A DNA stretch of 64,000 nt from Polytrichum commune (taxonomy: Eukaryota; Streptophyta; Polytrichopsida; Polytrichales; Polytrichaceae): positions 31,262,144-31,326,143 of the forward strand of contig OX485809.1 of the NCBI GenBank assembly GCA_950295325.1. The letters run 5' to 3'. The first letter of the stretch is position 1. Each line of letters starts with the position of its first letter. The position numbers and the translations under genes are program-made. The notes under the pieces are model-generated. The model did not search any database. It was not told where the DNA came from and saw only the letters and a program-made list of their open reading frames with translations. This document shows positions 5,592 to 63,310 of this stretch, one piece after another.

Positions 5592-6350
5592 CACAATGCA
5601 ACAAAGAGAAACCGAAAGATGTCAGCGCATAACCGGTTGGCCTCGGAAACACTACACTAAATAGGATATTTAGTGTTTCATTATATTTAGTGTTGTTACC
5701 ACCCTACCCTGTTCAACACTAATTTTCAATTACTTAACAATCAATGTTAGACATAAACGTGCCGCTACCTTTCCTACTGCCACCTCCCTTCCTAGTGAAG
5801 CATGGATGTCATTGAACTTCAAATTTTAGGGTTGGCGTCCCACCCCTCTGCTCGTTGATCTCTCTTCTGTCATTCTTTTCTTTCCCATACCCTTACTAAC
5901 ACTAAATTCGTACATGTAACTTCCACATATCACCATAGTTGATATTGAGTGTAACTTTGAGTTTACATTGGATGTTAGTTACTTACGTTAGGGTTATTGA
6001 CATTTCGCGTATGCGTTTGTATTTAGTGAATGAAACACTAAATATCGTTTTCAGTGCAGCTCGGATCTTGAGCGACGAGGCTCCACAATCTGGCCGGACA
6101 CTGGAGGTCAGAAGATTTGGCAAGGAAAGTGAAGTCAACAACACCATCTTGTAAGTACCTTACTCACGGGAAAATTATTAGTACACCCTCCCTGCCACTT
6201 CCAAAGTGAGCTTGAGTGAGTGATTGAAATGAGGAGGAGCCTGCAATCTCCGTCCGTCCATCCGTCCGGTGCCCTAGACTTTCCTCTTTTAGTGCACCCC
6301 ACAAAGTCCGAAGCTAGGGCGGGAAATTTGGGGGGGGGGGGGGGTGAAGT

Positions 6351-6870
6351 TTCATGGCAGCTAATTAATTAAGGGGCGGTTTACGCCATGGACCTTGAAG
6401 TTGTTCCAAGGCGCTATAAAATTTGTGATTGGTTGTTGCACTTGTCCCGGGACCACTTCCGGTTTACACCAAGGGAAGAGTGAATGTCAGAGTGGCCATG
6501 GAGTTCGAGGTCACCGGAAGATGTATTTTGAGGCCTACCTACATCGTCCACTGACGTGGTCCAACAGGTTTTGGGGTGGGAGAGGTGAAAGAGGTGCTCT
6601 CGTAGAAAATTTCATGGCAGGTAATTCATTAAGGGGCGGTTTACGCCATGGATCTTGGAGTTGTTCCAAGGCGCTGTAAAATCTGTGATTGGTTGTTGCA
6701 CTCGTCTCGGGACCGCTTCTGGTTTACACCAAGGGAAAAATGAATGTCGGAGTGGCCAGGGATTTCGAGGTCGCCAGAAGACGTATTTTGAGGCCTACCT
6801 ACATCGTCCACTGACGTGGTCCAACAGGTTTTGGGGTGGGAGAGGCGAAAGAGGTGCTCTCGTAGAAAAA
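6351..6870. repeat. Two-copy 260-bp direct tandem duplication
   Basis: Positions 6351-6610 and 6611-6870 are two highly similar direct copies with a period of 260 bp, both starting TTCATGGCAG. Each carries the block AAGGGGCGGTTTACGCCATG, which is also the left terminal inverted repeat of the element at 6371-7226. The open frames inside (6395-6679, 6655-6900) repeat the same peptide because of the duplication and have no known domain. Confidence 0.9.
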
Positions 6871-24900: not shown

Positions 24901-25974
24901 TGGGCTCCCTTGAGTTATGGTCTCTGGATTGTGGTGTTACGGTAGTGTTCATGAAAAACAACATTATTCCCAAGACTTTAGTGTAGTTGTTGTAGGGGAG
25001 GAGGGGATGAACTTAGTGAACCTTACCATGCCACATGTTATTTGTAGCACATGTACTTTTGACTAACATGACTTTTGCTAACCATAATCAAATCAGAGAG
25101 GTCCGATTGTGATGATGCTTCATCGTAGCTTTGCTAATTGCAAAACAAGTTTCATTTTGTATATTATTTTTAGAAGTTGGAGATCATAGAAATAAACTAA
25201 ATAACACCCACATACCTTAGTAAGCTTTTGCAAGTTAAAGTCATGTTAGACTAGTCTACACTAATAATCTACTATCATGGCAATTTAGTAGTGTACTCCT
25301 GTATTTTTTTTGGAAGTGGGAGACTTACATGCCACATTAAGGTGGGCAAGACTGTGCTACAGGACAAGTCACAAAGACCACTCTAATTAACATTGCACAC
25401 CAATTTTGACCCTTAATATCCCTAAGGTTTTGTATATTTTCAAGATCAATTGTAAAGTGAGATTTGCAAGCTTGCTTTATGAAACATTCATGAAGCAAAT
25501 ATATTGAAACAAAGTCAAAGATCATTTCCATACAGTTGGGCCTTTTAAATAAGGTCATGAGCTTTGTATAAGCATATTCAAAGCAAAGACTTAAGAAAAA
25601 AACTTCATAAAACGGGAGATGACATTAGTTTGCATAGACTTTTTGTAGATATATTCATCTTATAGAAACTTATAATTTATATTAAAATCAAAATGAATAA
25701 TTATAATTGTATGTATAACATGTGATCAACATGTTAATGAAATCAAAAACTTGTCATTCAATGCATCATGTTTCAATTTTCTTTTGTCTTGCATGCATAA
25801 TCACTTTGGTGATACACATACCAAAATTGAAACAAGAATGTTTGACATGAACAGAGAAATATATCACCAACAATTCTTCTTTGGAAATAAACACCATTCC
25901 AGGATTGAAAGTCAATGTGACTTTGAGACCATAATGTGGTCTCAAAAAAACCTTAAGGGTCAATGTCATAATAA
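24901..25974. other. Repeat-derived intergenic DNA
   Basis: No gene. About 25030-25225 is a reverse-oriented relative of the repeat at 58405-58613 and 62918-63310; it shares the word AATAACACCCACATACCTTA, the reverse complement of the start of those copies. Confidence 0.5.
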
Positions 25975-26369
25975 AGGTTGGTTCACACTAGGTCCTGAGT
26001 CCCAAGTCACTTAAGGTAAATCCATGCAATCTTTGCCGTTGAGAGCATGGAAGTTGGGACTTACCACTTCACACAGGGTCCCAAGTCCAAGTCCAAGGTC
26101 CCAAGTCCCAAGTATGACATGGATGTCTACATGGCAACACTTTTCGAAGGTGAGGCTTGGGACTGGTGTTGAGAGTTGGCTTGAACAAAAAGCTAGGCCC
26201 AACTCTTGACACAAGTCCTGCGAACAGTTATGCTTAAAATAATTGAGATCCGACTTTAACAACAATTAACCATTTTTAATGATTTCTTGAAGCTCAAAAG
26301 TTGGGACTTTGCCTCCATGTCAAGACTTGCTAACATGAATGGGACTTGGGACCCCATGTGAACCAGCCC
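25975..26369. mobile_element. MITE family B, complete copy (Tourist-like)
   Basis: The left end AGGTTGGTTCACAC and right end GTGAACCAGCCC are inverted repeats. Both flanks are TAA (25972-25974, 26370-26372), the 3-bp target duplication typical of PIF/Harbinger elements. The inner words 'tcccaagtccc', 'gttgggact' and 'caacacttttcg' recur in the copies at 31200 and 31506. It is non-coding. Confidence 0.8.
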
Positions 26370-28369: not shown

Positions 28370-30277
28370 CTACTCAGGCTTGGCAACAACTTCCTGAACA
28401 GCTTCTTCAACAGCATCAGACGCATCAGACACCGCAGCCTGCACAGACTGGATGGCGACTTCGGGCTTGGCAAGCGACAAGTCATCTGCAAGGGGTGGGG
28501 ATTCAGGAATGGGTGGCACAGGGGCAGAGGACGTACTACTGAACTTGGCAACATAGAAGCTCAGAGGAGGCCCAGAATATGTGGTTCTGTCTGCAGGTAC
28601 GGGTGCATTCTTTGACAAATACAACAGGATGGAGGCAGCACTTGCCACTACAATCAAGGCAAGTCCACCTGCAACGGCCAAAGATTCGTCACTTCCTGAC
28701 TGCGAGCCGTCCCTCTTTCCAGTGCTGATAGCATTCTCCGCCACATAAATTGTTGGCTGTTAATACAAAATGCCCAATTACACATGATGTAAGTAAATTG
28801 CCTTAATGCAAGTGATGACGTACAAACACATCCAAATGCACCCCGACCCAAGAACAAGAAAGCAATCGCGGACTAACACATCCAGGTGCCAGAATGTGAC
28901 ACTCATTCATGCAGAACTCACGCAGGAAAGGTGGCCAGCTCATAACGGTGACCAACAGGTAATTGATATTTGTTTTCTCTTATTTTTGGCCGTCGGTGAC
29001 CATTTCACAACCAGATGGGCTTCTTCACATTTTGGGATAATTAACATGAGATGAGATGATCGCCCCAACCAAAATAAAGAACGTGACTATGGACACACAC
29101 ATCCAGATTCTAAAATGTGACACATATACAGGACTCCCGCAGGAAAAGTGGCCTGCTCGACATGGTTATGACCAACAGGTAATTGATGTCTGGTTTTTCT
29201 TAGTTTTTGGCCAACAGTGACCAATTCATCACCATTAAATGAGGCTCTTCAAATTTTGGGATGACAAACTTCAGATGAGAAGGTCAACCCTGCCAAGAAC
29301 AAGAAGGTGATTCCGGACAAACACATCCAGATTCTAAAATGTGACACGCATACAAGCCTCCCACATGAAAGGTGGCCAGCTCGAAATGGTGACCCACAGG
29401 TAATTGATGCTTATAAAAAAAAATAAAAAATAAAATCGTTTTTGGCTGACGGTGATCATGTCACCACCATCAAATGAGCTTCTTCAAATTTTTGAGGTCA
29501 CCAACTTGAGATAAGGTGAGATGGTCGCCCTGACCAAGAAAAAGAAGAAGCGACAATTTCATTGTTTATCCATTCGTGACCATTTCGAATTCCACATGCC
29601 ATAATGAAAAGATGTAACTGACCTCAACAGCATAAATGTTGGTCTGTCCTGCTGTGTCCTTCTCCACATATCCAGTCCACTTTCGCTCCGTTCGAGCCAT
29701 GGGAGGGAACGTTCCGGCCACCTTGGTATTCTCTTCCACCTTCCACTCCATACTTAGCTTCCCCACCTACATACACCACCATACATTCGAACCATGACAA
29801 CACCATCATCATCCCCATGGGATGGATGACCTAACAAACACCATCTAAAACCCTCAATCCCACGACTCTCGACACCCCAGCAACTCTTAGTTGGTCTTCC
29901 ACACCAACAATTCTCCACCCATTCTCACAATCCAGATCCCCCGACCAGGTCATCATAACCCCAACCCCCCTAATTCAAATCCCAAAAAACAAAATCCACC
30001 AAACCCCTCTCACTTGCTTCCCGAAGTGCACATTTTACAAGCACAATTCCTCCCACAACTCCTGCTCCACTCCAAATGTACAACGAGGCGTTCCACTTAC
30101 CTCCTTGACGGGTGCACATTCCTCATCGTTGCAGTCTTCAGGAGCTTTGACTGCACAGATCCTCAGCGGGGCTCTAGTCTGTGCCGACTTCCCAGCGGGC
30201 TTGGTGAACAATGCCCGGGTTCTCCAAGACCCGGTGCTGGGGCTGCAGGCAATCATGGACTGGGCCACTCCTGCCAT
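28370..30277 (-). CDS. MPH1: MPH1, thylakoid protein for PSII maintenance in high light
   Basis: Three exons, minus strand: 30277-30101, 29766-29623, 28756-28370. Introns are GT-AG in phase 0 and the product is 235 residues. The family (Arabidopsis At5g07020, from memory) is a thylakoid membrane protein that helps protect and repair photosystem II under strong light. The sequence shows a Ser/Thr/Arg-rich, acid-poor start (residues 1-42) typical of a chloroplast transit peptide. A conserved stromal or lumenal block follows (CNDEECAPVKEVGKLSMEW, then KWTGYVEKDTAGQTNIYAVE and PTIYVAENAIS). One membrane span lies at about 132-155 (LAVAGGLALIVVASAASILL). The tail is Pro/Ala-rich and acidic, and length matches the Arabidopsis protein as I recall it. 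Start is the first ATG in frame. Intron 2 holds a three-copy 222-bp tandem array. The poorly conserved C-terminal tail is usual for the family. Confidence 0.92.
28848..29552. repeat. Three-copy ~222-bp tandem array in MPH1 intron 2
   Basis: The word ACACATCCAG recurs at 28876, 29097 and 29321 (periods 221 and 224). Each unit also carries 'aatgtgacac', 'ggtggccagctc', 'acaggtaattgat' and 'tttttggc'. Copies are visibly diverged. The array lies wholly inside the intron between MPH1 exons 2 and 3. Confidence 0.9.
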
Positions 30278-31199: not shown

Positions 31200-31498
31200 G
31201 GGCCGGTTCGCATGGGTCTTGATTCTAAGTCCCAAGGTCTATGCACATGATTTTAGCCTCGTGGAAGTTGGGACTCACCACTTCACACGGGTCCCAAGTA
31301 TGACATAAATGCCTACATGGCAACACTTTTTGGAGGTGAGGTGAGGTGAGCTCGGGACTTGTGTTGATAGTTGGGTCGAGCAAAAAGCTAGATCCCACTC
31401 TCAACAAAAGTCCCACGAATTGCTTTTGCATAAATTGATGAAGATTCAAATTCAATGATGATTAATCATGTTTTAATGATGTCTTGAGGCTCAAGTTA
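31200..31498 (+). mobile_element. MITE family B, 3'-truncated copy
   Basis: It begins GGGCCGGTTCGCATGGG directly after TTA and follows the complete copy at 25975-26369 as far as its 'gctcaa(aa)gtt' block, then breaks off. The right inverted repeat is missing. A second family B copy in opposite orientation begins 8 bp later. Confidence 0.8.
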
Positions 31499-31505
31499 AT
31501 ACTAA

Positions 31506-31876
31506 GGGAAGGTTCACATGGGGTCTCAAGCCCCAACATGGAGGCAAAGTCCCAACTTTTGAGCTTCAAGATGTCATTCAAATATGGTTAATTATCATTA
31601 AAGTCGAATATTCATTATTTAATGTAAAAATATTCTTGGGACATGTGTTGAGAGTTGGGTCTAGCTTTTTGCTCGACCCAATTCTCAACACAAATCCCAA
31701 GCCTCGCCACCAAAAAGTTTTGCCATGTAGGCATCCATGCCATAGTTGGGACTCAGGACTTGGGACCCCATGTGAAGTGGTAAGTCCCAACTTCCATGCT
31801 CTCAACGGCTGAGATTGCACGGACTGACCTCAAGTGACTTCGGACTTAGGAGTTGGGATTTTGTGTGAATTGGCCC
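31506..31876 (-). mobile_element. MITE family B, inverted copy
   Basis: The ends GGGAAGGTTCACATGGGG and GTGTGAATTGGCCC are inverted repeats of family B type. The body is the reverse complement of 25975-26369. The left flank is TAA; the right flank is TTG, so the duplication is imperfect. Together with 31200-31498 it forms an inverted pair that could fold back. Confidence 0.8.
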
Positions 31877-38429: not shown

Positions 38430-39743
38430 AACGTGGGGTGGGGGGGCGATGGCAGAGAAACAAAAACTGGAGGAGAGAAACGGAGCTCCCTCAAGCCATG
38501 AAACTTTTCCCATCGCCATCGCTCAGGCTTCGTGTGAGCAAGAAAACCTCAAAAATTCCACAAGAAGAAGGATGTGCTCAATGTTTGCAACGGAGGGAGT
38601 TGTACAGATCTTGCGCAGGAAGAAAATAGAAGTGGAGTGTTCAAGGCCGGATCACGAGAGTGTTTTTTTAATTTTTTTCGTCGGCATCGCTACGGTTTTG
38701 GAAGGAAGGAAAACCTAATTCATCTCGGAGGGAGAGGAGTTTCACGTAGGCTGAAAGTATGCGTGTTGTTGTTGTATCAAGGGAAGGAAAACAATGTGGA
38801 GTGCGAGCCTGGTGAGACTCGTGGCCGTTTGTTATGTGGACATTGCTGGTAAATTTGGAAGGAAGGGTTAAATCTTCAATTCTGTGAGTAAAGTAGGCTA
38901 GCAGTACATTTTGGAGGCTGCACATGCACTATATTTGAATAGACATCGCTGTTTTGGTTTGGAAGGAAGGGAAACCTAAATGTGAAGGTAAATAGGATTG
39001 AAGGAAGTAGACGTCAAAGTTTGGTGGAGGAAGGGGCGATGGGAGTGAGCTTTTTCGTTGACATCGCTGTTTTGGAAGGAAAGTAAGAAAAAGCATGTAT
39101 CGGAGGTTATACTATAGTAGTTCAGTTAGTTGTGGAGGAAAACTTGTCCCAGAGCAAGTTAAATGAAGTGTTCGGATGATGATGCGTAGTAAGGGTGACG
39201 AGAATGACTTTAATTTATCATCTCCATTGATCCTTCGGAAGAAGGAAAACCTAATTCTGTAAGGAACTGAGGATCCAACTGGAGTGCTCGGGAGTGAGCT
39301 TCTTCGTTGACATCAATGTTTTAAAAGGAGGGCAAGAAAAATAAATAATATCGGAGGTTATATAATAGTAGTTAGTTGTGGAGGAAAAGCGGCCTGGAGC
39401 AAGTCACAAATTAAAGTGTTCGGATGATGATGTGTTGTAACGGTGACGAGAATGAGTTTTTTTTCATCTCCATTGATCCTAACTTCGGAATGAAGAAAAC
39501 CTAAATCTGTAAGGAAAGTACTTACTTACGGTGAAAGGATCATACATCGAGTTTGGGGAGTTGGTGTGGAGGAACTGAGGATCATACATAACGAAGGTTG
39601 TACAATAATAGGTAGTTGTGGAGGAAAAGGGAGCAAGATAATTGAAGTGCTCGGATAGAAAGTACGCATACGGTGGTAGGGTACATCGAGTTTGGGGGAG
39701 TTGGTGTAGAGGTTTCACTGAGGATCCAACTGGAGTTGTCGCG
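38430..39743 (+). promoter_or_regulatory. BRP1 5' leader and promoter region with internal repeats
   Basis: Immediately upstream of the BRP1 start. A 249-bp unit is duplicated in tandem (the word GGGAGTGAGCTT at 39041 and 39290), with shorter related pieces on both sides. Recurrent elements are 'ttcgttgacatc', 'ttggaaggaagg', 'gtgttcggatgatgatg' and 'gtgacgagaatga'. Open frames here (for example 38425-38718) are not supported as exons. No confident TATA box. Confidence 0.45.
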
Positions 39744-42700
39744 ATGCCCAAGGGGGATGAGAGTGGAGCTGACGATGAAGAGGACCGGGAGCTGAAACTT
39801 CTCAGCGCGGCCATAGCTATGGCGGAGGCCAGCACGGGCGACGAGGATACGACAGAGAACGAGGAACCCCCGCACCCATCGACGCCCCCCATCCCGAGTG
39901 ATGCGAAGGAGGGAGAGCAGCAGAAGGCTGATGCTGCAATTCTCAATCCGATCGCTGTGGAGATCGCAGCGACGATGCTGTCGGATGGAGGAGGAGGGGT
40001 GGCCATGACGCCGAAGCTGTCAACGGGGTCCATGCGCAGGTAGGTCCACACATGTCTGCTTTGTGTGTGACAGAGAGGTTCATCATTGGTTGTAGATCGT
40101 TGTGTGTCTCGGTAACAGGGTTCATTATATATCAGTCTTTGAGACTTTGAAGCTGCCTCTGGGGCTCCTTGTCGTTGATTGTTTCAACGTTGGCGAGATC
40201 CGTTATCAGGGTGAAGAATTAGGGTTTTGGGTTAGTCCACGGGTACATGAATGCAGAGATGAAAATTAGGAATTCGATGGGGACACACAATCTTCGGGTG
40301 TACTCAGTAGGACTCAATGTATCCGAATATGTGAATGGGTAACAGGATTCATTCTATCAGTCTTTGAATCTTTAAAGCTGCTCTGGGGCTCTTTGTCGTT
40401 GATTTTTGGGACGTTGGCGAGATCCGTTTTCAGGGTGAAGAATTAGGGTTTTTGGTTGGTGTACGGGGTATATGAGTAGAGAGATGAAAGTTAGGAATTC
40501 GACGGGGACACAGTCTTCGGGTGTCGTCAGTAAGGAGTTGTTGTATCCAAATATATGGATGGGTAGCAGGATTCCTTGTTTTGGTCTTTGAGGATTTAAA
40601 GCTGCTTTGGGGCTCTGTTATCAATTATTGCAACGTTGGTGAGATTTGTTATCAGGGTGAAGAATACGGGTTTTTGGTTGGTGCACTGGTATGCCATTAA
40701 AGAGATGAAAATCAGGAATTCAATGGGGGCACAGTCTTCGGGTATAGTCAGTAGAACTTCGTGCACTCTCTCTTTAGTTATTTTATTTAAACAGCAACAA
40801 TATTTTTGCTAGAAGAGGGTCTCAATACTCTCGACCACTGCACACTCTGACCATAAAGGATGTTTAGTTTGTTAGTGGTGAATGATTTCTACCGGTGATA
40901 GGCCGCCCTTTCCTTTGCAGTGCCCATTTTACCAGTCTTGTTTTCATTTGAGGTTCAGATTTTTTGTGAAACCAATCAGGTCATTCGATCAGTATGAGGA
41001 CCTTTTAATTCTTCATTGCAGCAATTGTCAGATGTTGTGTCCATTGAAGGGGTTTACATGCCCCAAAATAGTGTTCTTTAAACAGAGTTACCTGCTATTC
41101 CTGGTCGAAAGTTCATGAGCTTGTGCTGACTATCGTTAGACTGGATATTACAATCAGTGATTCTAGCTCCCATGTACTGTCCTACTATAGATAGTCTGTG
41201 ATTTGATTTGGGAGGCAAAAGTGGATTGGCAGGTCCACCTTGTCAGAGCTGTTCTCTAGCAAGAGTTTGGGTGAGGTAATTGAGCATGTTCTTGTGCAAT
41301 CCTGTTAGATATTAAGCACATGGGCATAAAATGCGTTGGGTTGACTCACTTGTCACTTCACTTGATTGCATATGAATGATAAGAGATGTCACAAACTTTA
41401 TTTCTTGTTCCTGAAAGGTGTTTCTCAATTGTAACATGGTGTAACAGGTGTGGACTCTGTGGAGGAAGTTCTGATGGTGAACGAGCTGCAGACCCCCCTT
41501 CAGATACTCTGGTTACTCAAGGCAGTGTTAGCTCTCAGCTGCTAGATGAGAATTGTCCTGCAGATGGAGCTTCTGAAGGCAGAAAAGCAGATGGCTTTGG
41601 GGCAGACAAGGGTTGGCTTGGTCGGCTTTTGGGTCCTCTTGGTGAACATGTTGGTGTTTCTGGAGCTTGGATTCATGAAAATTGTGCCATCTGGAGCCCT
41701 GAGGTTTGTTCCCTATTGCAAATAGGTTGATAATATGACTACTTGTGACAATAGTGTCCATTCTCATTGGCTTAAAGTTCTTTGATGGGATTTCCAGGGA
41801 TGTCATTGTTAAGTTCAAACGTGTCTCATCATATCAGTATTTAGATCTTGTAGCATCCAATCATCTGCTCTAAGCATCACACAAGGAGTCTATGCTGTGT
41901 CCAAGTCTGTGACTACATTGATGCTAAAGGAATGTAGTGGAGTAAACTGTATTCATTGAGCACACTAAAGTGACAAAAAATATATCTATTTTATATGTGT
42001 AGGCTTGACCTCTTGCCCCATTGCTGTGTATTTTATCTGCATACATTTCTGGTACCCTTCTGAATTCAAAGCGAGTTTGCTGACTTGTTGCATCTGCTCA
42101 GAATGATAGTGATGAGGGCTTAATACATTGCTTTCACATGTTCTCTTGAGTACTATGACCTTCCAGGTTTGATATTGCCTTCAAGTTTGCATGTGCCTGT
42201 GGTTGTTCTGTTGGTGCAGGTGTATTTCTCAGGAATTGGCCGTTTGAAGAATGTGAAGGCAGCAGTTCGACGGGGCCGTTACCTTCGATGCAGTCGCTGC
42301 AATCATCCAGGGGCAACCATTGGATGTCGAGTGGATAGATGTCCTCAAAACTTCCACTTGGTGAGCTCTACAGAGGACTTTCTGAACAACTTCTCAATTT
42401 AATTTCATTTGGTGTGTTGGAATTGGAAATGTAGATGATAAGAGTTATCAAATATGCAAGAATCTGCTTAGACCAGTGAAGATTTTATCAAGTGACTTGG
42501 AGTTGGCAAGTATGTATTTGTCTGAGGTTTACCTTTTATGTTACTGTATCCCAGCCATGTGCACGGGCTGAACAACTTCTTGATTTTATTTCATTTTGTG
42601 TGCTCGAATTGGAAATATAGATGATAAGAGTTATCAAATATGCAAGAATCTGCTTATAACAGTGAGGATTTTGTCGAGTGACTTGGAGTTGGCAAGTATA

Positions 42701-45700
42701 TATTTGTCTGAGGTTTAACTTTTATGTTACTGTATCCCAGCCATGTGCACGAGCTGAGGGCTGCATGTTTAACCATCGAAAATACCTGATGGCCTGCTAT
42801 GATCACTCTTACTTATTTCGCCGCAAGCGCAAGAAGTCTTTCTGGAACTCCAGTAAGTATGGTCATGGAGGTGTTACAGACTCAGCCTGTTTAAATTGGA
42901 CGCCAAAGATATCAAAAGCACAGAGGCGTGCAGCAGCATCAGCTGCACGATTGAAGGACGTTGAAGCTGAAGAGAAGTACTTAGATAAGTCTGGGGAGGA
43001 TGAAGAATTTGTGAGGCGGGAACGCAAGCGTTTGTTGCGGGACCTTGCTCAGATAGCTCCAGTGAAATTGGGAGGAACTACAAGTGAGAAAAGCCTAGGT
43101 GCTGGTGGTGATGGATGGGATAGTGTCGCTGGATTGCAAGATGTGGTACAATGTCTCAAAGAAATGGTCACCCTACCTTTACTATATCCAGAGGCTTTTC
43201 AAAGGTATTTGCTTTCACATTCCAAAGTGACTTTGCTGGAAATTTTGAAGACGCCTCTTTTGGTAGATCTTTCTTATCATCATTGCTACTTCTCATTTAA
43301 GCACCATCTTGTCTAGTTCATGCAATAATATTTTTGAACTAGTTATAGGTTTGAGTGCTAGTGAACACTTGATTGGAGTTGTCAAACAGTTATGGAGTTG
43401 CAAGTTACAGGGTATACCCTAACTTGACCCTAGACCTGTGTACATGTTACTTTGGTGGTTGCAATTTGTTTATTGCTAATTTATTTTTTTATTTTTTTGT
43501 GAACAGGCTGGGCATTTCACCTCCACGTGGGGTGCTCCTACATGGTCATCCAGGGACTGGAAAGACTCTGGTTGTACGGGCTTTGGCAAGTGCATGTTCC
43601 CGTGGAGGGCAACAAGTTGCTTACTTTGCTCGAAAGGGTGCAGACATTCTGGGCAAATATGTAGGTGACTCAGAACGCCAGCTACGGCTTCTGTTTCAAG
43701 TGGCTGAGCAATGCCAGCCTGCAATCATCTTCTTTGATGAAATTGATGGGCTGGCTCCAAGCAGGTGTGGGGATCGGGACCAGACACAGAGTTCTGTTGT
43801 CTCGACTTTGTTAGCTTTGATGGACGGCTTGAACTCCAGGGGTTCAGTTGTTGTTATTGGGGCTACAAATCGTCCTGACTCTCTTGATCCAGCTCTTCGG
43901 CGACCAGGAAGATTTGACCGAGAAATATACTTCCCTCTTCCGTCAACTGCTGACAGAGCTGCTATTCTGCGCCTTCACACCAAGACGTGGGTACCTGCAC
44001 CATCTCAAGAAATTCTTTCTATTGTGGCCAAGGCAACACCTGGTTTTGCTGGTGCAGATTTGCAAGCTCTTTGTGTAGAGGCAGCCATGACTGCTCTTCG
44101 AAGGGTGGTACCTTTGAAGGAGATCTTAAATTCTGCACAAAGGGGGATTTTGGAAACTAAGCTACCTTCTCTTCCGCCAATTCAGGTACTTCAAATGACT
44201 AGATGTAGTTTTTGGAATTGGTGTATTGGAGCCTTCTAGTGAAGTGAAAGTACATTAAGATTGATTATTTGCGAGTTATCATTCTCACATTTCTGTTTGA
44301 TGTTTGATGGTTCATGTTTCTGGACTATGTTTTGCAGGTGAAAGCAAAGGACTGGGCATCTGCAATAGCTCACGCCCCTCTACCTTGCTCTCGAAGGCAG
44401 GCTTCAACTTCTTTGACTCAAGTTCCAGCTGCTCCTCTTCCAAGGCACTTGGTCCCCACACTTCTACCAATCTTGGTGGAACTACTGGTCACGCTTGGTT
44501 GTGATGCTCGAGTGTCACTCCCACCATCACTCTCAAAGGCCTTATTCTTAGTGGAGCTTGCTTTGAAAACTGTGAGATCTGGAAATACTCTGAATGGAGG
44601 TAATACATGCAGAGTTTCTGGTCCTCCTGAGAATTGGCTCACTATGGTTCAAACTTGCTTCAAGCAGAACCCAACACTTGCAAAAGCCCTAGAGAATGGG
44701 CTTACCAGTGCTGGCATCATAGCGGAGACATATGATGCATCCTGCTCTACACGACCAGTATCAACTATCCTCTTTCCAGATAAAGTTATCAATAGCAGTG
44801 AGAATTGCTCTGTTGATATAAATGGTGTTGGCGACAATCACACAGGGGACCAAACTGCTAGTTCCACCACGAAAGTCTGTATCAATGAACCTATAGATGA
44901 GGTTACTACAAAAACAAACTGGCAAGGAGGCACTTTTCGGATCTTACTTCTTGGGGATGGAAAGCAAGGTCAAAATTATGTTGCAGGGGCATTCATTCAT
45001 GGTTTTGAAGGGCTGGCTCAAATGTGGACTTTGAGTCTTCCAGCCATACTTATGGAAGGAGGTGGAGATGTGGAACAGGGTCTTATCTACATAATAGGTC
45101 AGTTTCATGAAAGAATACAGAGGATCTCTTAGTTGGTACAGCTGCGTTTTGTAGATTTTATAAATCTTGGTTGCAGCTATGAAACAACATGTTTGCATCT
45201 GCATCATCACTGTACAGTAGGTCAATTGGCATCTTCCTGAAATTTCTAATTAGAGCACTCTTTCATTGCTTAATCTATGTTATTGTCCTCATCATGGTGC
45301 TTAATGTGTAACTACAAGGTTTATTTCATAACTGTGCAGGGGAGGCTAGGCGCAGTGCTCCCTGTGTTCTGTACATGCCCAAGATAGAAGACTGGGTTGT
45401 GAACAGAGAGGGTGATGGTAAAGAGAACACAGATTCTCCAAACAATCAGAATAATAGTGCGTCTAAGAACCATTTTTCCAAAGGCAGATCTCAGAAGGAT
45501 GTTCAGCATGATGACTCAACGGTCTTAGAGGTTTCAAATGCTTGGAAACTGATGAAACAGCAACTGCAAACTATGCCACCTGATACTCAGCTGATGCTTA
45601 TGGTATGTACTTGTGTGCACCTGTTTAAAATTAGTAGGACGACCTCTCATGAATGAACTTCCTAAATCCTAAATGTTGAAGTTGTTTCAGATATTGGGAG

Positions 45701-54048: not shown

Positions 54049-56536
54049 CTGAGGCCGAGGAGGAGCAACACCAGCGGCATGCTCAAGCTCCTGTATCCTT
54101 TTCTCCAATTGAGTGTAATATCCCTCCACCTAGCCATTCCAAACTTTCAAGATAAGTACTCTATAATGAGCACTGCTTGCCTCCTCCTATAGGATTCAAG
54201 GATGCCAAGAAAAGAGCACAGATGCAGTTTTAAAAACCAACTTCTCTGTTCCAATTTATAATCTCAACAATTCCTAGACTGGTTGTAAGCCGGCAAAAGC
54301 TTCTGCAACAAGAGCATTACATTTGCTTCTTTGCTTGCATAATGCCAAGTCAAACACAAATCTCACAGCTACAAGTTGATCAAACTGTCCTACTGTGAAA
54401 TATCTGTTTTAAAGACATCCATAAGGCAGCCTCAAACATAGCTGCTCAAACACTAATGCCTCGCATGATTGGTAACACATGCTGCGGACATGTCAAGCAT
54501 AAATGACTGATTGACCTGTAAACTGTGGTCCAATGCTGCAACCAAACAACAGGCTAACATACTTGAGCAAAACTTCAAAAGCGGTCCACATATCTGTAGG
54601 TAGATAAGCCTGACATTGTAGACATTGCATAGCACTGACACATCATTAAAACCCTGAACCCAATGCACACCACAGATCAAACTGAAATGTCTGTACCAGT
54701 GACTCTACATTTTGTGACCAGCTCAAAATTTGTGCTGGAGCACAATAAAGAAGAACCACCAAGGGTTTCCTCTCATGGGGTTTGCATGTGCAATCTCACT
54801 GCAACTCTGGCACACTTGATCAAAACATCCAGATCCAAAATCTTTGACTGAACAAGCAATACTCTGAGTTCACATAAACTCTTTGATCAGTGCCTATAGA
54901 AGTAGCTTGGGAAGTGTCCAATAAATGCCGTCATACTCTGATTTTTTGCCATCAGGCAAAGAGGCTGAGAACCCAAACATCAATTTTCATACAAAACCCT
55001 TCTTTTCATCACAGTCACAACCAGCTCCACACCTGCTCCACCAGACCCCAGCCATGTCCCAATTTCCACAGAAACTGCTGCCAACATCCCCGGCCTTGAG
55101 ATAACAATGTCCTATCCAGATCCGCCACAAAGTGCCACCTACCTAACATAATTCCTAGGGGGAAGAGATCCTAAACTACACAAAATAATCGGTCAATTCC
55201 TCAAACCCTAAAACCCCAAAGGGGTATGAGGAATTAAGGAGAAGTGCCCCAACCTTGACACAAAAATGGCCTCACCTCATCCACCACAACATGAAAATTC
55301 CACCACCCTAAAAGAATTCCTAGAAAACTTTCTTCAGTCCAGGGAACACTCAAGGAGTGATTCCACCATTTAGACCGATCTCCACCTTGAGACAACGAAT
55401 GGCTTCACATTATCCACCACAAAATGCTGTCACCTTGCAGACATTCCTGATCCGTACAGGCCATCACGCCCTTGAAACAATCCATCCAAACCCCAAATCA
55501 CAAATGAGTGATTCCAAAATTCAGACCGAGCTCAACCCTGAGATAACGAATGCCTCCCATTTTCTACTATACATTTTGGAGACATTGAACGGTGATCACA
55601 GACGTGGTAAGGGAGGCTGGTGACGTTCAACCTTCCAGACAACCTTCCCAGCCGTCGCAACCGCATGGCCTCGGAGACTGATTCGTATGCGCGAGTCCAA
55701 GTCCAATGCAAAACGCCGTCACCCTCTAAACAATGACATTCCTCAGAAGCCCTCTCAAGCCCTTGAAACAATCAATCCAAACCCCAAATCACAAAGGGTT
55801 CTCCCAGAATTTAGACCGATCTAGAGCTTAACACAACGAAAGGCCTCACGTTATCTTTTATACATTTTGGATATGTCGAACGGGGATGTTGATCGTACGG
55901 GCGGTGAGGCCGTCGGCCGTCGACTCCATTATATTAATTCATAAGCGCAGGTGCAACGGGCCGAGACGGCATAGCCCCAAACTACATAGTCCACTACATA
56001 ATGCCGTCACCTTGCAGATATTCCTGTTCCTCGCAGCCCGTCCGACGACGTTGAAACAATCAATCCAACCCCCAAATCCCAAACGAGTAATTCCAGCAAT
56101 TTAGACCGACCTCGCGCTCGTCGCAGCGAGTAGCCTCACATTATCCACCAAATAATTCCGTCCCCTTGCCATGCCCTCCCCACTTCCTTGAAACAATCGA
56201 TGAATCGATCGAAACCTGAAAACCCTAACGCCCGCGAGGAGTGATGCGCAATTTGAGTGCGAATGGGGGATATGATGGAATGTAGTACGTTACCTCATCG
56301 GAGAGGATATGGTGGCTGCCCCACACGTCTCTTTGCAGCTGGTACATGGCGATGCCGGAGGCCACAGCGAATCCCGTCAAAAACGAGGCGGCCCGCACTC
56401 GGAACATCGTGCTTGCTTCGAGCCCTGTGATGCTCCCAACACTCGCCTCCTCTTTCTCCTCTTCGTCTTCGTCTTCGTCTTCGACTGTCTTCAGACCCAA
56501 GATCATCCATCCTTGTGGATGTTTCTCCATCTTCAT
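54049..56536 (-). CDS. Small single-span membrane protein, function unknown (3' end unresolved)
   Basis: Two exons are clear on the minus strand: 56536-56294 and 54129-54049, joined GAG|GTG in phase 0 with GT-AG borders. They encode about 108 residues. The first 43 are acidic and contain a GAC/GAA microsatellite-coded Asp/Glu run. Then comes MFRVRAASFLTGFAVASGIAMY, a likely membrane anchor preceded by basic residues, and a coiled-coil-like stretch YYTQLEKRIQELEHAAG. Similar short plant proteins often start at the Met of MFRVRA (56407), so that ATG may be the true start. A possible third exon from 53978 (70-bp intron, open for about 50 codons) is weak; alternatively the frame runs through exon 2 to a stop at 53947. 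I do not recognise the family and assign no function. Confidence 0.6.
55330..56210. repeat. Tandem array (~290-bp unit) in intron 1 of the small membrane protein gene
   Basis: The word TTGAAACAATC recurs at 55472, 55763, 56051 and 56188, so the periods are 291, 288 and a shortened 137. Each unit also has 'tccaaaccccaaatc', 'ttagaccga', 'acaacgaa', 'cctcac.ttatc' and 'tgccgtcaccttgcagacattcct'-like blocks. Moderately diverged. Confidence 0.85.
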
Positions 56537-56696
56537 CCGATAGTTATCATCCGGTTATGTGGATGAATGACTCATCGCGCATGGTGACAGATCATCATGC
56601 GTCTCGTTCCACGGCTCAGCCTTCGTGGCATCTAATTTGGGTGACCTCATCACTCGTGGATGAAGGGCCTTTATGTGTTGTGCAAGTTCTCGGTCA

Positions 56697-58143
56697 AGGA
56701 GGGGCTCGGGCTAGAGCTCATGTCAAATTTGTATGGGTCCCGCCATGCTGAGTCATGACCCCATCATATATTTACGAACTTTTTAAGGGAGGGTGTCAGG
56801 GTTGGGGCCTGCGATCCAACAGCCCTTGGTAGCTTCGTTTGTGGGGGGGGGAATCCCAACCGAAAATTTGTTGTCCGTCCCGTTTGACTTTCAACAAGCA
56901 TTTCCTCTTGCATTTTTGAAGGTCACTTATCCACAAAAACCCATATTGAGTGCACTTCACTTTCAAGGTCCAAAATCCAATGTATGTTCACTTCCCTCTA
57001 GTAAATAAACAATTAATTGGGATTTCATTCCGAAAGTGAAACCGTCAATCAAGCATGAAATCAACTTGGAAGTCAAAAATATTGCAAATTCCTCATTGGC
57101 ATTAAAGACCTTGACTTACCATTTGAAAGGGTCTTTGTCATTTTAAAATGAAACTTAAAATAGTGTTCTACTTTTAGTTTGTTTATTTTATGATAATCCA
57201 GCTAATTCCTTCTACTTGCACAAGTATTCATGTAAACTCAAACTAGTTAAGTGTGATTAAATGTATTTAGGCATATTAAGCCTAGTTTAATGTAAATGAG
57301 TGCAAGGCCTAAGTTCTATAAGTATTCATAGAAATTCGAACTAATTAAGCCTGATTAAGTGCAGGTATGCACAGTAAACCTAATTTGGCATAATGAACCC
57401 TAAACAAGAGTATTTAAGCACGTTGATTTGAATGTTTTAATTAACGAATTACTTACTTAAAGTAAGCACATTTTTATTTAATTAGTCTTAATTACTTTGG
57501 TAGGCATACTTTTATTTAGTAAGGATTAATTAGGTGCATTAAGTTCAATTAGGCTTAATACGCTTAAATAAATTGAATTGCACTTAATTGGTTTGAATGT
57601 GTATGAATACTTTTGTAAGTAGAAGGAATCAACAAAAAAAAAAAGCACACTATTTTAAGTTTCATTTTGGAACGACAAAGACCATGTCAAACGCTAAGCC
57701 ACGTAAAGTACAAGGTCCTCAATGCTAGTGAGGATTTTGTAATATTTTTTACTTCCAAGTTAACTAAATGCTATATTGACAATTTCATTTCAAAAATTAA
57801 ATTCTAGTCAATTGCTTGGTTTTTAAGGGGAAGTGAACACGTATATTGGACTATGACCTGAAAGGCGAACTACACTTGATATGGGTTTTTGTGGACAAGT
57901 GGCCTTCAATAATGCAAGGGCAACAAATAAATTGAAGTTGGGTGAGGTGGGTAACAATTTTTAGTTGGGATCATAATATTTTTATTTATTTTAAGGGGGG
58001 GGGGGCTGCCCCATAGGTGTTGGATTGTAGGCCTCCACCTTGACACCCCTCCACATGAAAGTTCGTAAATATATGATGAGGTCATGGCACGATAGAGCAG
58101 GGCCCATGCAGTGTGACATGAGCTCTAGCCCAAATCCCAAGGA
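56697..58143. mobile_element. 1.45-kb near-palindrome, foldback-type element
   Basis: The left arm (from about 56697) and the right arm (to about 58143) are inverted copies through a centre near 57415. Paired landmarks are GGGCTAGAGCTCATGTCA with its complement near 58105-58130, ATCATATATTTACGAAC (56763-56779) with 58061-58077, CCACAAAAACCCATAT (56931-56946) with 57879-57894, and CCTTCTACTT near 57212 with its complement near 57620. Weaker pairing on 'attaagcctagtt' blocks continues to the centre. The arms are about 700 bp each and non-coding. No target duplication is certain. Confidence 0.85.
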
Positions 58144-58404
58144 GGGGGTTATAATTATATGTTGGAAAGTAATCCACTCGTCAAGGGGTGGAGACTTTAA
58201 GTAGGTGTCAATGTATGTATGTACATGTGTATGTATGTATGTGTATTATAAGGACCCACCTCTTTACCCGCCGCAACCTAGCATAAATTTTTAATGGAAT
58301 AGGTTCGTCATCCATTTCGGCTAAAGTCAACTCACCTTATGACATTGTTTATTGTATACATCTACTAGGAAAAAGTTGATGTGGGGTATCATGATTTCTC
58401 TTAG

Positions 58405-58613
58405 CAATATACTAAGGTATGTGGGTGTTATTTGGTTCGTTTTCATGTTCTCCAACTTCTACCAATTAGATCTACAAAACGAAACTTGTGTTGTTGTACC
58501 AAATTTACAATGAAACACATGCAAAAACATGACTGAAAATTGGGACCCCACCCCTTTGCTTTAGTTATGGTTATCAGAAGTGCACATTTGTTGAGTTCTA
58601 ATTCAATACATAG
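58405..58613. repeat. Left part of a repeat split by the Copia insertion
   Basis: It begins AAGGTATGTGGGTGTTATT at 58413, as does 62918. This left part plus 62669-62917 aligns with the unbroken copy 62918-63310, so the repeat was tandemly duplicated and one copy was later interrupted at 58613/62669. Confidence 0.7.
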
Positions 58614-58873
58614 TTTTAAGACACCACCATCGACAACGACTGGGTGTCAGTAGACCCAACTTCGTCATCATAGGATGTTATCTTGGGACTATAGGCATGT
58701 TATCTTGGAACTATAGTTACCAACGAGGCATGTTACCTTGGAAGTATCAAACCTTCTATATCTATCCGAGTAAATGGTTAATAAAGAAGAAGTGACCTCT
58801 CGTTCTCGTGCTCTCTTGCTCATAGACTTTTACCCATCATTAATCCCTCTCTCGTCTCATCATTTTCGTAACA
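58614..58873 (+). repeat. 5' LTR of the Copia element
   Basis: About 260 bp, matching 62386-62668. It starts TTTTAAGACACCA (consensus TGTTAGGACACCA in the other copy) and ends near CGTAACA. Shared blocks include 'cataggatgttatcttgg', 'gaggcatgttacct' and 'agaagtgacctctcgtt'. The following CGTTATCATCAC word resembles the sequence often found just inside plant Copia LTRs. Confidence 0.88.
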
Positions 58874-58954
58874 CGTTATCATCACAAAAGCTCTAACAAA
58901 TGTTGTTGTTTTGAGTTTGGTGAGTTTTGTAAGAGTGGTATATTGCTTAAGTGT

Positions 58955-59705
58955 TGTGAGGTGGAAGAGAGAAAGATGTGGTGCTTGTGAGGATCATGAT
59001 TCAAGGAAGTAACAACATACAAATGTTTCCTTAGGCAGGGAATTGCTAGGGTACACCAACCTATTTTGTGACTTGTAGAGCTAAATTTTCATAACACCCT
59101 CTTTGATGATGTATGTAATTTCATTGATATCAAGTATAGTTTGCACGTCTTTGGGTGAAGCGATGGTGAGGTGGTTGCAAAAATGCTCAAACTTGTTGTG
59201 TGGTGATCCCTTTATCACAATGTTTGCAATCTTATTATATGTGGAAATGTAGGAAATTTTGGATTTTCTATTCTCAAACTCCTCTCAAATGAAATGATAC
59301 AATATGTCTATATGAAAAATGGTCAATCATAATATGTTATCAAAATATTTGACAACATATTTGTCATATGGATATATTGTATCATTTCATTCCATAGAAT
59401 TTTGAGGATGGAGAAAATTATAATTTGTACATTTCCACATATGATAAGCTTGTAAACATTATGATCAAGGGATTACCACACGACAAGTTTGAGCATTTTT
59501 GCAACCACCTCACCATCGCTTCACCCAAAGACGAGCAAACTCTACTTGATATCAATGAAATTACATACATCATCAAAGAGGGTGTTATGAAAATTTAGCT
59601 CTACGAGTCATGGAACAAGTTGTGTAGCCTAGCAATTCCTTTGTATATTATTATTTCCCTGGATCATGATCCTCACAGTCACCACACCTTTCTTTCTTCC
59701 ACCTC
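58955..59705. repeat. Inverted duplication of the Copia gag region
   Basis: The left arm, about 58955-59330, is the reverse complement of the right arm, about 59340-59705, with a loop of only about 10 bp. A 30-bp block is perfectly paired: 59159-59188 with 59491-59520. The right arm in the plus sense reads as gag-like protein (KLVNIMIKGLPHDKFEHF, then IASPKDEQTLLDINEIT), so the left arm is the inverted copy. Part of the left-arm sequence occurs a third time, in direct orientation, at about 59709-59800. Confidence 0.9.
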
Positions 59706-59959
59706 ACTGGGATTTTAATTTTTTTTCTATCCTCAAACTTCTCCTGAACGAAACGATACAATACATCCATGAGATAAATGGTTTGTCGAAATCTTTTATT
59801 AAAATACTGCAGTTAATCGCTAGACCATTATTCATGAGATCCAATCTTCCTACTTCCACATAGGGCTATGTTATCCTTTATGCATAATCATTGGTTCATT
59901 TAAGACCCTCCATGCTAGAATTCACAAGACCTTCATAAATAATATTTGGTCAAGTACCT

Positions 59960-62220
59960 AGCATGAAACACATGAGGATTTTTTGTTGTAAGGTGTTAGT
60001 ACCCATTCCTCCCCCACAAGGAAGCAAGATGGGCCCTCGAAGGAAAGAAGGGATATATGTTGGGTGTGAATCACCTCACATTATTAAATACTTAGATCCT
60101 TTAACTGAAAAATTATTGCAATGTAGTTTTGTTGATTGTTTCTTCAATGAGGATTCTTTTTCTATGTTTGGTAGGACAACTAAATCCATGTAGATATTTA
60201 AACTTCAATGTCTCATCTACTCCAAACATGTTTCCCATATCCTCGCACCCAAAAGTATGAAAGAGAAGTTGAATGCATTATGCATTTGAATCAATTAGCA
60301 TGTAGACCACCTAATTCATTCAATAATGTTGTAAATGTGACTAATTCACATATTTCTATTGCCAACATTCATGCTCGTCTTGTGAAACACGATGTTCAAA
60401 CCACACCCATGAAAAGAGCTCGTGGGAAAGATCTTCAATTCCGTAAACAACGTACCCATGTAGAGGTACATGCCGCACGTGAGGGTGTGTTTTCTAAGCA
60501 TTGAGTGGGATGATTCTAGAAGACAAACACTAATTGATTCAACTTAAATTGCAATCAACTTTGTGAAGACATGAAAGATCTTCAACCTCCAAAACAATGT
60601 ACCTAGGCAGAGGTACATGCGGTGTGTGAGGATGTGTTTCCAAGCATCGAGTATGATGATTCTAAAAGAAAACACTAATTGACTCAATAGGGATTGCAAG
60701 GAACTTTGTAAAGACATGAAAGATCTTCAATCCCGCAAACAATGTACTTAGGCGGAGATACATGCCGCACATGAGGGTTTTGTTTCCAAGCATTGAACAC
60801 GATTATTCTAAAAGAAAAAACATTGGGTGTTTCACTGAGATATTGTAGTCAACCTTGTGAAGACACAAAATGTTTTTGAACCCCACAAATAACATACCGG
60901 AGTGGAGGTACATGTGGCACACGAGGGTGTGCTTCCAAACATTGAGTTGGATGACTCCAAAAGAGGAGTGCCAGTTGATTAATCACATATTGCAATAAAT
61001 TTGTGAAGATGTGAGAGTTGTGGAACAATACACATGTTAACCTAGATAATACCTTTTTGTTCCATGTATCACAACACTTGGATGATGATTGGGATCCAAC
61101 TATTGTAGCCAAGGCTCGTAGGCAAAGTGATTTGTCTATGTGGGGTGAAGCCATGCGATTTGAACTAGAGTCTTTGAGATCATAAAATGTGTTTGGTCTA
61201 ATTGAGACTACACCAAAAGGGCTTAATGCAATGGTTTGTAAATGGGTGTTTGTGAAGGATGATATAAGTTTGGAAATGTTTTCCGGCACAAAGTACAACT
61301 AGTTGCCCAAGGCTTTATCCAATGAATGGGCATTAATTATGAAAAAAACGTATTCACATGTGATGGATTCAGTTATGTTCATGAGGCAATCTTCCACGTC
61401 GGAGTTTGTACACTCGCAAGATCCTTAAGCATTTCTCAATGAATGCGGCTTGCCCACTAAGTTCTCCAATGGTGGTATGGCCATTGGACATAAAGAAAGA
61501 TGACTTTAGACCATGCAATGAGGGGGATAAATGTTTGGGACCCGATACTTTATATTCGGTAGCAATACATGCATTTGGCAAATTGCATTAGGCCTAACAT
61601 TGCATTTGCCGATAATTTATTGGTTGGATTTAGGGCTAAGCCAACAAAATGGCATTGGAATGATGTCAAACTTATATTGCGATACCTCAAGGGCATAGAG
61701 GATCTAGGATTGTTTTATGGAGTTAGAGGGGATAGCAATATCAAAGGATACATGTATGCATGTTACCTCTTTGATCCACATCAAAGGAAATTTCAACACA
61801 TGTTATGTTTTCCTCATACAAAGGGCAACAATATTTTGGAAGTCAACAAAGTAGAGTCATGCAACCACATCTTTAAACCATTCAAAAACTATAGCTTTGC
61901 ATGTGGCTTCATGTGAATGTGTTTGGTTGCGATTGATTGATGGCTTCAACAAAGATTATTGTGAGTTTTCAAATGTTCCTTCTACTCCAACGGCTATTTA
62001 TGAAGAGAATGCAACGTACATTGCTCAAAAAATGAAGGACTAGTACATCAAATAAGACCAAATCGAGCACATCTTACCAAAGTTTTTTTTCACTCATTAA
62101 CTATTAGGATCATATAGATGTGAAACATATTAAGTATGTTGATAACCTAGCACACTTATTTACTAAGCCATTGCCAACCGCTAGGCATAGACAAATTGTT
62201 AAGGGAATGAGGGTGCTAAG
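59960..62220 (+). pseudogene. Copia pol remnant (integrase C-terminus, RT, RNase H)
   Basis: Fragments in shifting frames. 59963-60193: integrase C-terminal region with RKEGIYVGCESPHIIKYLDP. About 61090-61370: RT start with NVFGLIETTPKGLNAMVCKWVFV after an in-frame stop. About 61406-61591: a PLSSPMVVWPLDIKKDDFRP block. 61569-61916: late RT/RNase H with LANCIRPNIAFADNLL, KLILRYLKG and DLGLFYGV. Near 62100-62220: the tail corresponding to the usual 'HIRS..N.ADLFTKALP' end. It is interrupted by many stops and is not functional. Confidence 0.88.
60424..61010 (+). repeat. Four-copy ~147-bp tandem array inside Copia pol
   Basis: The word GATCTTCAA or its variant recurs at 60430, 60577, 60722 and 60872 (periods 147, 145, 150). 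Each unit carries 'gaggtacatgccgcac', 'gagggtgtg', 'ttccaagcattga' and 'gattctaaaaga'. Copies have diverged, so the amplification is not recent. Confidence 0.9.
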
Positions 62221-62378
62221 CTTTTCATTCTTATTGACATGAAAACAATCATGTCTAGACCCTTCCACTCTCTTTTCCTTCACTGTAAGTTTTTACCTCA
62301 ATTATGATAATTTTTACTACAATAAGATTTTTAATAAGGGAATGTAATGTGGAGTCTAAAACAAGGCTCGTTGTGTTT

Positions 62379-62385
62379 AGGGGAG
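62379..62385 (+). other. Polypurine tract of the Copia element
   Basis: AGGGGAG directly precedes the 3' LTR start TGTTAGGACACC, the usual plus-strand priming site for LTR retrotransposons. Confidence 0.8.
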
Positions 62386-62668
62386 TGTTAGGACACCATA
62401 GTCAACGATGACTGGGTGGCAATACACCCAACTTTGTTGTCATAGGATGTTATCTTGGAACTATAGTCATGTTATCTTGAAACTATAGTTACCCATGAGG
62501 CATGTTACCTCAAAAGTATAAAACCTTCTATATGTATGTGTGTATATATATATATATATATGAGTAGGAGATTAATTAAAAAGAAGTGACCTCTCGTTTT
62601 GGTGCTCTCTTGCTCTTAGAGTTTTACCTATCATTATTCTCTCTCACAACTCGTCATTTTTTGTCACA
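62386..62668 (+). repeat. 3' LTR of the Copia element
   Basis: Starts TGTTAGGACACCATAG and ends near GTCACA. It differs from the 5' LTR by many substitutions and a TATG/TA microsatellite expansion at about 62533-62562, so the insertion is old. Confidence 0.88.
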
Positions 62669-63310
62669 CAACAATCCTCCCAATTGTACTAAGTATAGAG
62701 TAGTTGGTAATATTTGGAGATGTTTGCTTTGTGGTCCAATCTCTTCCAAACATGCGTTTTTGTGATGTTTGCTCTTTGGTCCTCACCGAACCACATACCA
62801 ATCATAATCTAGAGGTCTGATTAAGAAAAGTAACCCCATAACACCCGCATAACTTATACAAGATGACCCTAGATACAAGCTAACTATCCTCTTCACGATA
62901 TTATGAAAGAGGACCATGTAAGGTATGTGGGTGTTATTCGGGTTGTTTTTCATGTCTTCCAACTTCTACATATTAGATTTACACAACAAAACTCGTATTG
63001 CATTAGCAAACCTACGATGAAACATATGCCAAAACCATATTGAAAATCAAACCTCCCTTAATGTAGTTATGGTCATTGGACAGGAATGTTTGTTGATTTT
63101 CTTAACTGGATACATAAGTCTTCTCAATTGTGTTCACTGGTGAGTGTAGAGTAGTTTTTAGTGTTTGAAAACATACTCCAACCTCTTTTCAACATGTGTC
63201 TTTATATATTTGCTCTTTGATCCTCATTGAGCCACATACCAATCAAACATAGAAGTCCAATTAAGAAAACGAGCCACTTAAGACCCATGTACCTTATATG
63301 CATTGAAAGG
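62669..63310. repeat. Right part of the split repeat plus an unbroken tandem copy
   Basis: 62669-62917 completes the copy broken by the Copia element. 62918-63310 is the next, intact copy; both contain 'gtgtagagtagtt', 'ccaacctctt..aacatg(c/t)gt' and 'ccacataccaatca'. More distant relatives lie at 23205-23600, 25030-25225 and 31884-32290. Confidence 0.65.

Follow-up and report, generated by a model that had tools for sequence, protein, structure and literature searches.

Among plant transposons, MULEs are set apart by TSDs of 9-11 bp combined with long TIRs, which typically measure 100-500 bp and usually surround an internal sequence (PMC3310237). MuTAnT, a MULE foldback family of Medicago truncatula, has 9-nt TSDs, often lies near genes and has (TA)n microsatellites as targets; 90 % of its elements measure 200-300 bp, the extremes being ca. 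200 bp and more than 1.6 kb, the mean TIR is 47 bp, and the terminal GGGG of the 16-base TIR mask, GGGGTTTGCTAGAACA, is often partly lost (PMC4486113). The Mutator/Foldback elements FARE of Arabidopsis and Tm1 of the root-knot nematode carry composite TIRs (PMC3169594, PMC4486113). Those of Tm1 consist largely of 13-15 bp tandem repeats, duplications of 8-10 bp were recorded for 45 of the 53 complete elements, and part of the family carries a putative transposase gene (PMC3169594). In maize, a hairpin RNA has been proposed for Mu killer, a MULE-derived palindrome beside a gene which carries transposase gene sequence and whose silencing effect has been demonstrated; transcripts have also been reported that contradict the earlier read-through model (PMC3440606). 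Finally, engineered G:U hairpin-RNA transgenes break the DNA palindrome and retain the RNA pairing via G·U pairs (PMC9263138). In the main text of the pineapple MULE-MITE paper, we found no terminal sequences for comparison (PMC8449440).

The locus described here is a near-palindrome of 1.44 kb (Table 1) that occurs as one copy in the 64-kb window, i.e., the whole stretch of DNA that was analysed. We consider it probable, with considerable room for doubt, that it is an old, non-autonomous foldback-type DNA transposon which consists almost entirely of two ~700-bp TIRs and most likely belongs to the MULE superfamily. It resembles plant long-TIR MULEs in having TIRs of hundreds of bp and a putative duplication in the 9-11 bp class, but differs from their typical members in its longer arms with almost nothing between them (PMC3310237). 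With MuTAnT it has in common the foldback of long TIRs, the non-autonomous character, G-rich termini with GCTAGA nearby, a putative 9-nt duplication and the proximity to a gene; however, its ~700-bp arms far exceed the mean MuTAnT TIR, its target is purine-rich, and the likeness of the termini is partial, the kinship being putative (PMC4486113). The foldback architecture is shared with FARE and Tm1 (PMC3169594, PMC4486113), although a single pair of sub-repeats 98 bp apart stands in place of the tandem repeats of Tm1 and no domain was recognised in 6 of its 17 ORFs (PMC3169594). As in Mu killer, a palindrome capable of a proposed hairpin RNA lies beside a gene, but the present element is known from sequence alone (PMC3440606), and where the G:U transgenes were designed, it shows only a modest statistical skew (PMC9263138). 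The near-palindrome is real, of a known general kind, and probably an ordinary, old element.

Table 1 Positions of the near-palindrome, its parts and other features within the window
Feature	Position	Strand	Details
Direct repeat CAAGGAGGGG, left copy (putative TSD of 9-10 bp)	56695..56704	+	covers four bases at the outer end of the left arm
Left arm (TIR)	56701..57406	+	begins GGGGCTCGGGCTAGAGCTCATGTCA; arm alignment 500/645 identical; inverted pairs I1-I9
Inner sub-repeat of left arm	57222-57288 and 57320-57386 (span 57222..57386)	+	direct repeat D1, 76 % identical
Unpaired centre, 26 bp	57407..57432	.	inner limits of lenient local alignment
Right arm (TIR)	57433..58138	-	reverse complement begins GGGATTTGGGCTAGAGCTCATGTCA; arm alignment; 18-bp outer motif
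Right copy of direct repeat CAAGGAGGGG	58138..58147	+	shares one base, its first, with the outer end of the right arm
Possible first coding exon of a small protein	56225..56536	-	ORF; gene status inferred
Old, decayed Copia-type retrotransposon	58612-62660	+ (SH3-like domain)	LTR-like copies 58612-58866 and 62384-62660, 82-83 % alike
Second near-palindrome	58956-59707		89 % identity over 360 aligned columns, 100 % in bin 59076-59135
Third near-palindrome	31225-31849		280 aligned columns, 83 % identical; GTCCCAA motifs repeated

A preliminary description of this DNA had reported two inverted arms of ~700 bp at this place, with pairing that weakens towards the centre, and both features stand. 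When 56701-57406 is aligned globally with the reverse complement of 57433-58138, 645 columns are free of gaps and 500 of them (77.5 %) are identical (K2P 0.275); the arms differ by 96 transitions and 49 transversions, and there are 25 gaps, none longer than 23 bases. Local alignment of slightly enlarged arms gives a score of 1605, with 537 of 674 columns identical, whereas 100 shuffled right arms average 532 (sd 33) and reach at most 614. The inverted arms extend over the full length of the element. On another scoring scale the element region reaches 304 versus at most 42 for uncentred 1650-bp tiles of the window, a weak control because the tiles are not centred on other palindromes. A chance origin of the pairing is excluded. 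The repeat search gave ten inverted pairs for 56000-59000, and nine of these (I1-I9) sit entirely inside 56701-58138. With strict gap costs the alignment halts at inner limits of 57290 and 57544, and the innermost ~250 bp are therefore more weakly paired; gap-free identity there is 76-81 %, with many gaps required. TRF did not report the two sub-repeats of the left arm, 67 bp each and 98 bp apart, as a tandem array. Each arm also holds a poly-G run (56843-56851, 9 bases, and 57995-58005, 11 bases). As both lie on the + strand, they are not paired with each other, and each may have lengthened on its own once the palindrome had formed.

The outermost inverted pair (I7) joins 56701-56725 to 58114-58138. 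How sharp the termini appear varies with the gap costs: strict costs set the outer limits at 56708 and 58131, 7 bases inside on both sides, and under lenient costs the alignment drifts ~50-57 bases beyond the termini, through gappy sequence, to 56644 and 58189. An outer motif of 18 bp, GGGCTAGAGCTCATGTCA, is the same in both arms and is absent elsewhere in the window at up to 3 mismatches. Beyond it, GGGGCTC on the left faces GGGATTT on the right, which differ by transitions only; the proposed termini of the element read GGGRYTYGGGCTAGAGC. Where the preliminary description had seen no clear target duplication, the decamer CAAGGAGGGG forms an exact direct repeat at both arm ends and is a plausible TSD of 9-10 bp. 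When two 24-base terminal windows are compared in this way, a shared stretch of at least 9 bp occurs in 49 of 20000 random pairs drawn from the window and in 20 of 20000 composition shuffles of the flanks (~0.1-0.25 %).

Two readings of the duplication can be given. In one, it spans 9-10 bp and the left TIR is short of its outermost bases, a loss that is frequent in MuTAnT elements (PMC4486113). In the other, the TIR starts at 56701. Because the GGGG of the left TIR is also part of the direct repeat, the strictly abutting duplication would then be just AAGGA, 5 bp and not MULE-like; an abutting 5-mer match is found in 279 of 200000 random pairs. Both readings predict the identical empty site. 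It also speaks against a duplication that, by our own arithmetic, a perfect 9-bp repeat next to arms that have diverged by 22 % would survive in only ~0.1 of cases if both decayed equally.

The resemblance to a foldback transposon, already remarked upon in the preliminary description, is thus strengthened by a flanking repeat that had escaped it. Being made of little besides its inverted arms, the element is of foldback type, if mobile: the arms make up nearly all of it, only 26 bp remain unpaired at the centre, and the predicted fold lies far below those of shuffled sequences. The arms of ~706 bp, 77.5 % identical in gap-free columns, agree with the long TIRs of MULEs and exceed their typical length. 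We tentatively file the element with the MULEs because the size of its 9-10 bp repeat falls in the published range. At the right TIR end, GGGATTTGGGCTAGAGCTCA, the MuTAnT mask scores 16, a value reached by 27 of the 127,960 window positions and, among those starting with GGG, by 9 of 1,380, itself included in both counts. The left end matches weakly (389 of 127,960 positions and 84 of 1,380 GGG-starting ones, again itself included), and unrelated positions of the window outscore both ends, the best reaching 18 versus 16 for the right end. The MULE label is therefore thinly based at the termini, which are consistent with the filing without proving it. None of the features of MULE or foldback membership failed outright, and we call the element a probable MULE-like foldback, not a member of a named family.

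No Pfam domain (E≤1) and no MURA-type transposase was found in the 6 ORFs tested among the 17 of at least 40 aa that overlap the element. Rfam gave no match inside it and two sub-threshold matches to miRNA models outside, in the TATG-rich stretch 58195-58250. As expected for plant DNA, the 18-base terminal motif had no exact match in viral contigs, nor a different 22-base motif of the arms in bacterial and archaeal genome contigs. The Copia-type retrotransposon nearby was considered as a part of the palindrome, but it does not belong to it, as its LTR-like repeat begins near 58612, ~470 bp past the right terminus.

We infer that the element was once mobile. A transposase supplied from elsewhere would have excised it and pasted it into a target of the form ...TCGGTC-AAGGAGGGG-GTTATAATT..., which lies upstream of a small ORF at ~165 bp from its first ATG, and this insertion would have duplicated 9-10 bp of the target. 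The element would then have become immobile, and its arms, (near-)identical at the start, would have drifted to their present identity. If the arms did begin identical, the insertion is old, because the K2P distance between them is 0.275 (22 % divergence). Plant substitution rates were assumed to be 1e-9 to 7e-9 per site per year, at which the age would be some 20-140 million years; gene conversion between the arms, or arms that were unlike from the outset, would alter this estimate. CpG dinucleotides are depleted (21 observed versus 47 expected), as is usual for long-methylated repeats, and of the 96 transitions, 14 occur in a CpG context in one arm or the other.

The long dsRNA hairpin which, according to the preliminary description, would form upon transcription is borne out as a fold prediction. 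RNA of the + strand folds at -637.7 kcal/mol, as compared with a mean of -345.8 (sd 11.5, lowest -370.0) for 30 dinucleotide shuffles of the same strand, and thus ~25 sd below them. The - strand reaches -593.2 kcal/mol, so that the + strand is better by 44 kcal/mol. In the + strand fold, the longest uninterrupted helices measure 26, 23, 22 and 21 bp, as compared with 29, 23, 22 and 21 bp in the - strand fold. When a palindrome decays, a transition in either arm gives a G·U pair in the RNA transcribed from one strand but an A·C mismatch in the RNA from the opposite strand. In the present arms, G·U pairing is kept in the + transcript at 61 differences and in the - transcript at 35 (p=0.01); six gap settings gave splits between 45:22 and 62:38 (p 0.002-0.021). 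By thirds of the arm it is uneven, at 27:11, 16:19 and 18:5.

As controls we used 9 of the 24 inverted-repeat pairs of the window, aligned over slightly enlarged coordinates and partly dependent, two of them sharing an arm and one overlapping the third near-palindrome; the 15 pairs left out comprise nine from the three near-palindromes and six others. Pooled, these controls split 58:58, against which the skew of the element is borderline (Fisher p=0.053) and its excess of transitions has a p of 0.017. Two short, closely spaced hairpins among them lean the opposite way (1:6 and 1:2). The two other near-palindromes split 16:9 and 16:11, neither being significant alone. The skew is therefore a weak lead that selection for RNA pairing, a transcription-linked mutation bias or chance might each account for. 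Should strand-skewed decay hold over many copies, it would provide a simple sequence test for hairpins kept for their RNA.

How else might such a structure have come about? By analogy with Mu killer, it could be a transcribed long-hairpin locus that is kept for siRNAs against related transposons or the neighbouring gene. The very stable + fold with its long helices, its advantage over the - fold and the skew in G·U pairs would all suit this idea, and because the adjacent ORF is oriented away from the element, a divergent transcript might run into the element from its left side. However, the longest single helix of all belongs to the - strand fold, the skew is uneven along the arm and borderline against the nine controls, strand-biased mutation or chance would produce it as well, and what Rfam returned was sub-threshold and lay outside the element; we hold such a locus to be improbable. 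Somewhat more doubtful still, on the analogy of the engineered transgenes, is a natural G:U hairpin, i.e., an old foldback beside a gene, transcribed from the + strand, whose RNA pairing would have been selected while the DNA palindrome decayed; it would be a long-lived source of small RNAs and, like those transgenes, would itself escape silencing.

The structure might also be an inverted duplication of one ~700-bp repeat, produced by two opposite insertions or by break-and-copy, with no TIR transposon involved. The window holds two further near-palindromes, and as the one at 58956-59707 lies between the LTR-like repeats of a Copia-type element, it seems that in this genome sequence other than TIRs can also undergo inverted duplication. 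Moreover, the direct repeat may be due to chance at the frequency given above, and the lenient alignment runs past the proposed termini. Against this, the outermost inverted pair stops at 56701 and 58138, exactly where the direct repeat of 9-10 bp lies, and the inner arm contains a pair of sub-repeats, a possible trait of foldback TIRs. On balance, we regard such a duplication as rather unlikely, with a claim to be taken seriously. An assembly artefact, in which one stretch was falsely duplicated in inverse orientation, had been named in the preliminary description as an objection to the whole structure, and errors of this kind do happen in large plant assemblies. However, a false duplicate is expected to be near identical, and the arms differ in 145 of 645 aligned columns and by 25 gaps; divergence of 22 % leaves this explanation barely credible.

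On the reading as a MULE-like foldback, which we prefer, the locus is another old insertion near a plant gene and mainly useful for repeat annotation of this genome. The neighbour, called a small membrane protein gene in the preliminary description, is a small ORF that is divergent from the element, with its first ATG at 56536, a second candidate ATG (MFRVRAASF) at 56407 and a likely splice donor, as judged by eye. It has no match in Pfam or PDB. The element had been placed ~160 bp upstream of this gene, in agreement with the ~165 bp now measured to the first ATG; by position, it would occupy the likely promoter or 5' leader. Three further proposals, namely a new family, small RNAs and regulation of the gene by the element, are not supported by the present evidence. 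Directly downstream of the small ORF, 55350-56200 carries degenerate repeats with a period of ~290 bp (ATTTAGACCGATCTC... / CTTGAAACAATCAATCCAAACCCCAAATC...), which possibly lie in an intron.

By its gene content, the window appears to be land-plant nuclear DNA. It carries an AAA-ATPase gene, which presumably resembles an Arabidopsis protein, and a tRNA-Val, together with a weak match to a GT10 glycosyltransferase just below the Pfam cut-off. The Copia-type retrotransposon contains a retroviral-polymerase SH3-like domain at 59939-60193 (E 5.5e-11); as this domain is on the + strand, the retrotransposon reads away from the palindrome. Within it, a degenerate ~147-bp repeat is present in about four copies (60426-60940), and the second near-palindrome sits just past its 5' LTR-like repeat. 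Both arms of this near-palindrome hold one and the same short reading frame (KFEHFCNHLTIASPKD...), in opposite directions. A dispersed repeat of ~220 bp with TAAGGTATGTGGGTGTTATT, 81-83 % identical, occurs at 58387-58612, 62885-63116 and 25045-25248 (-), the former two copies flanking the retrotransposon, one per side. Inverted relatives of the right side of the third near-palindrome are found at 25993-26088 and 26274-26329. Finally, tandem duplications of long period (186-260 bp, 76-92 % matches) were noted at 6350-6869, 28848-29409, 39041-39516, 40111-40753 and 42382-42757, the last of which overlaps an ORF of the AAA-ATPase region.
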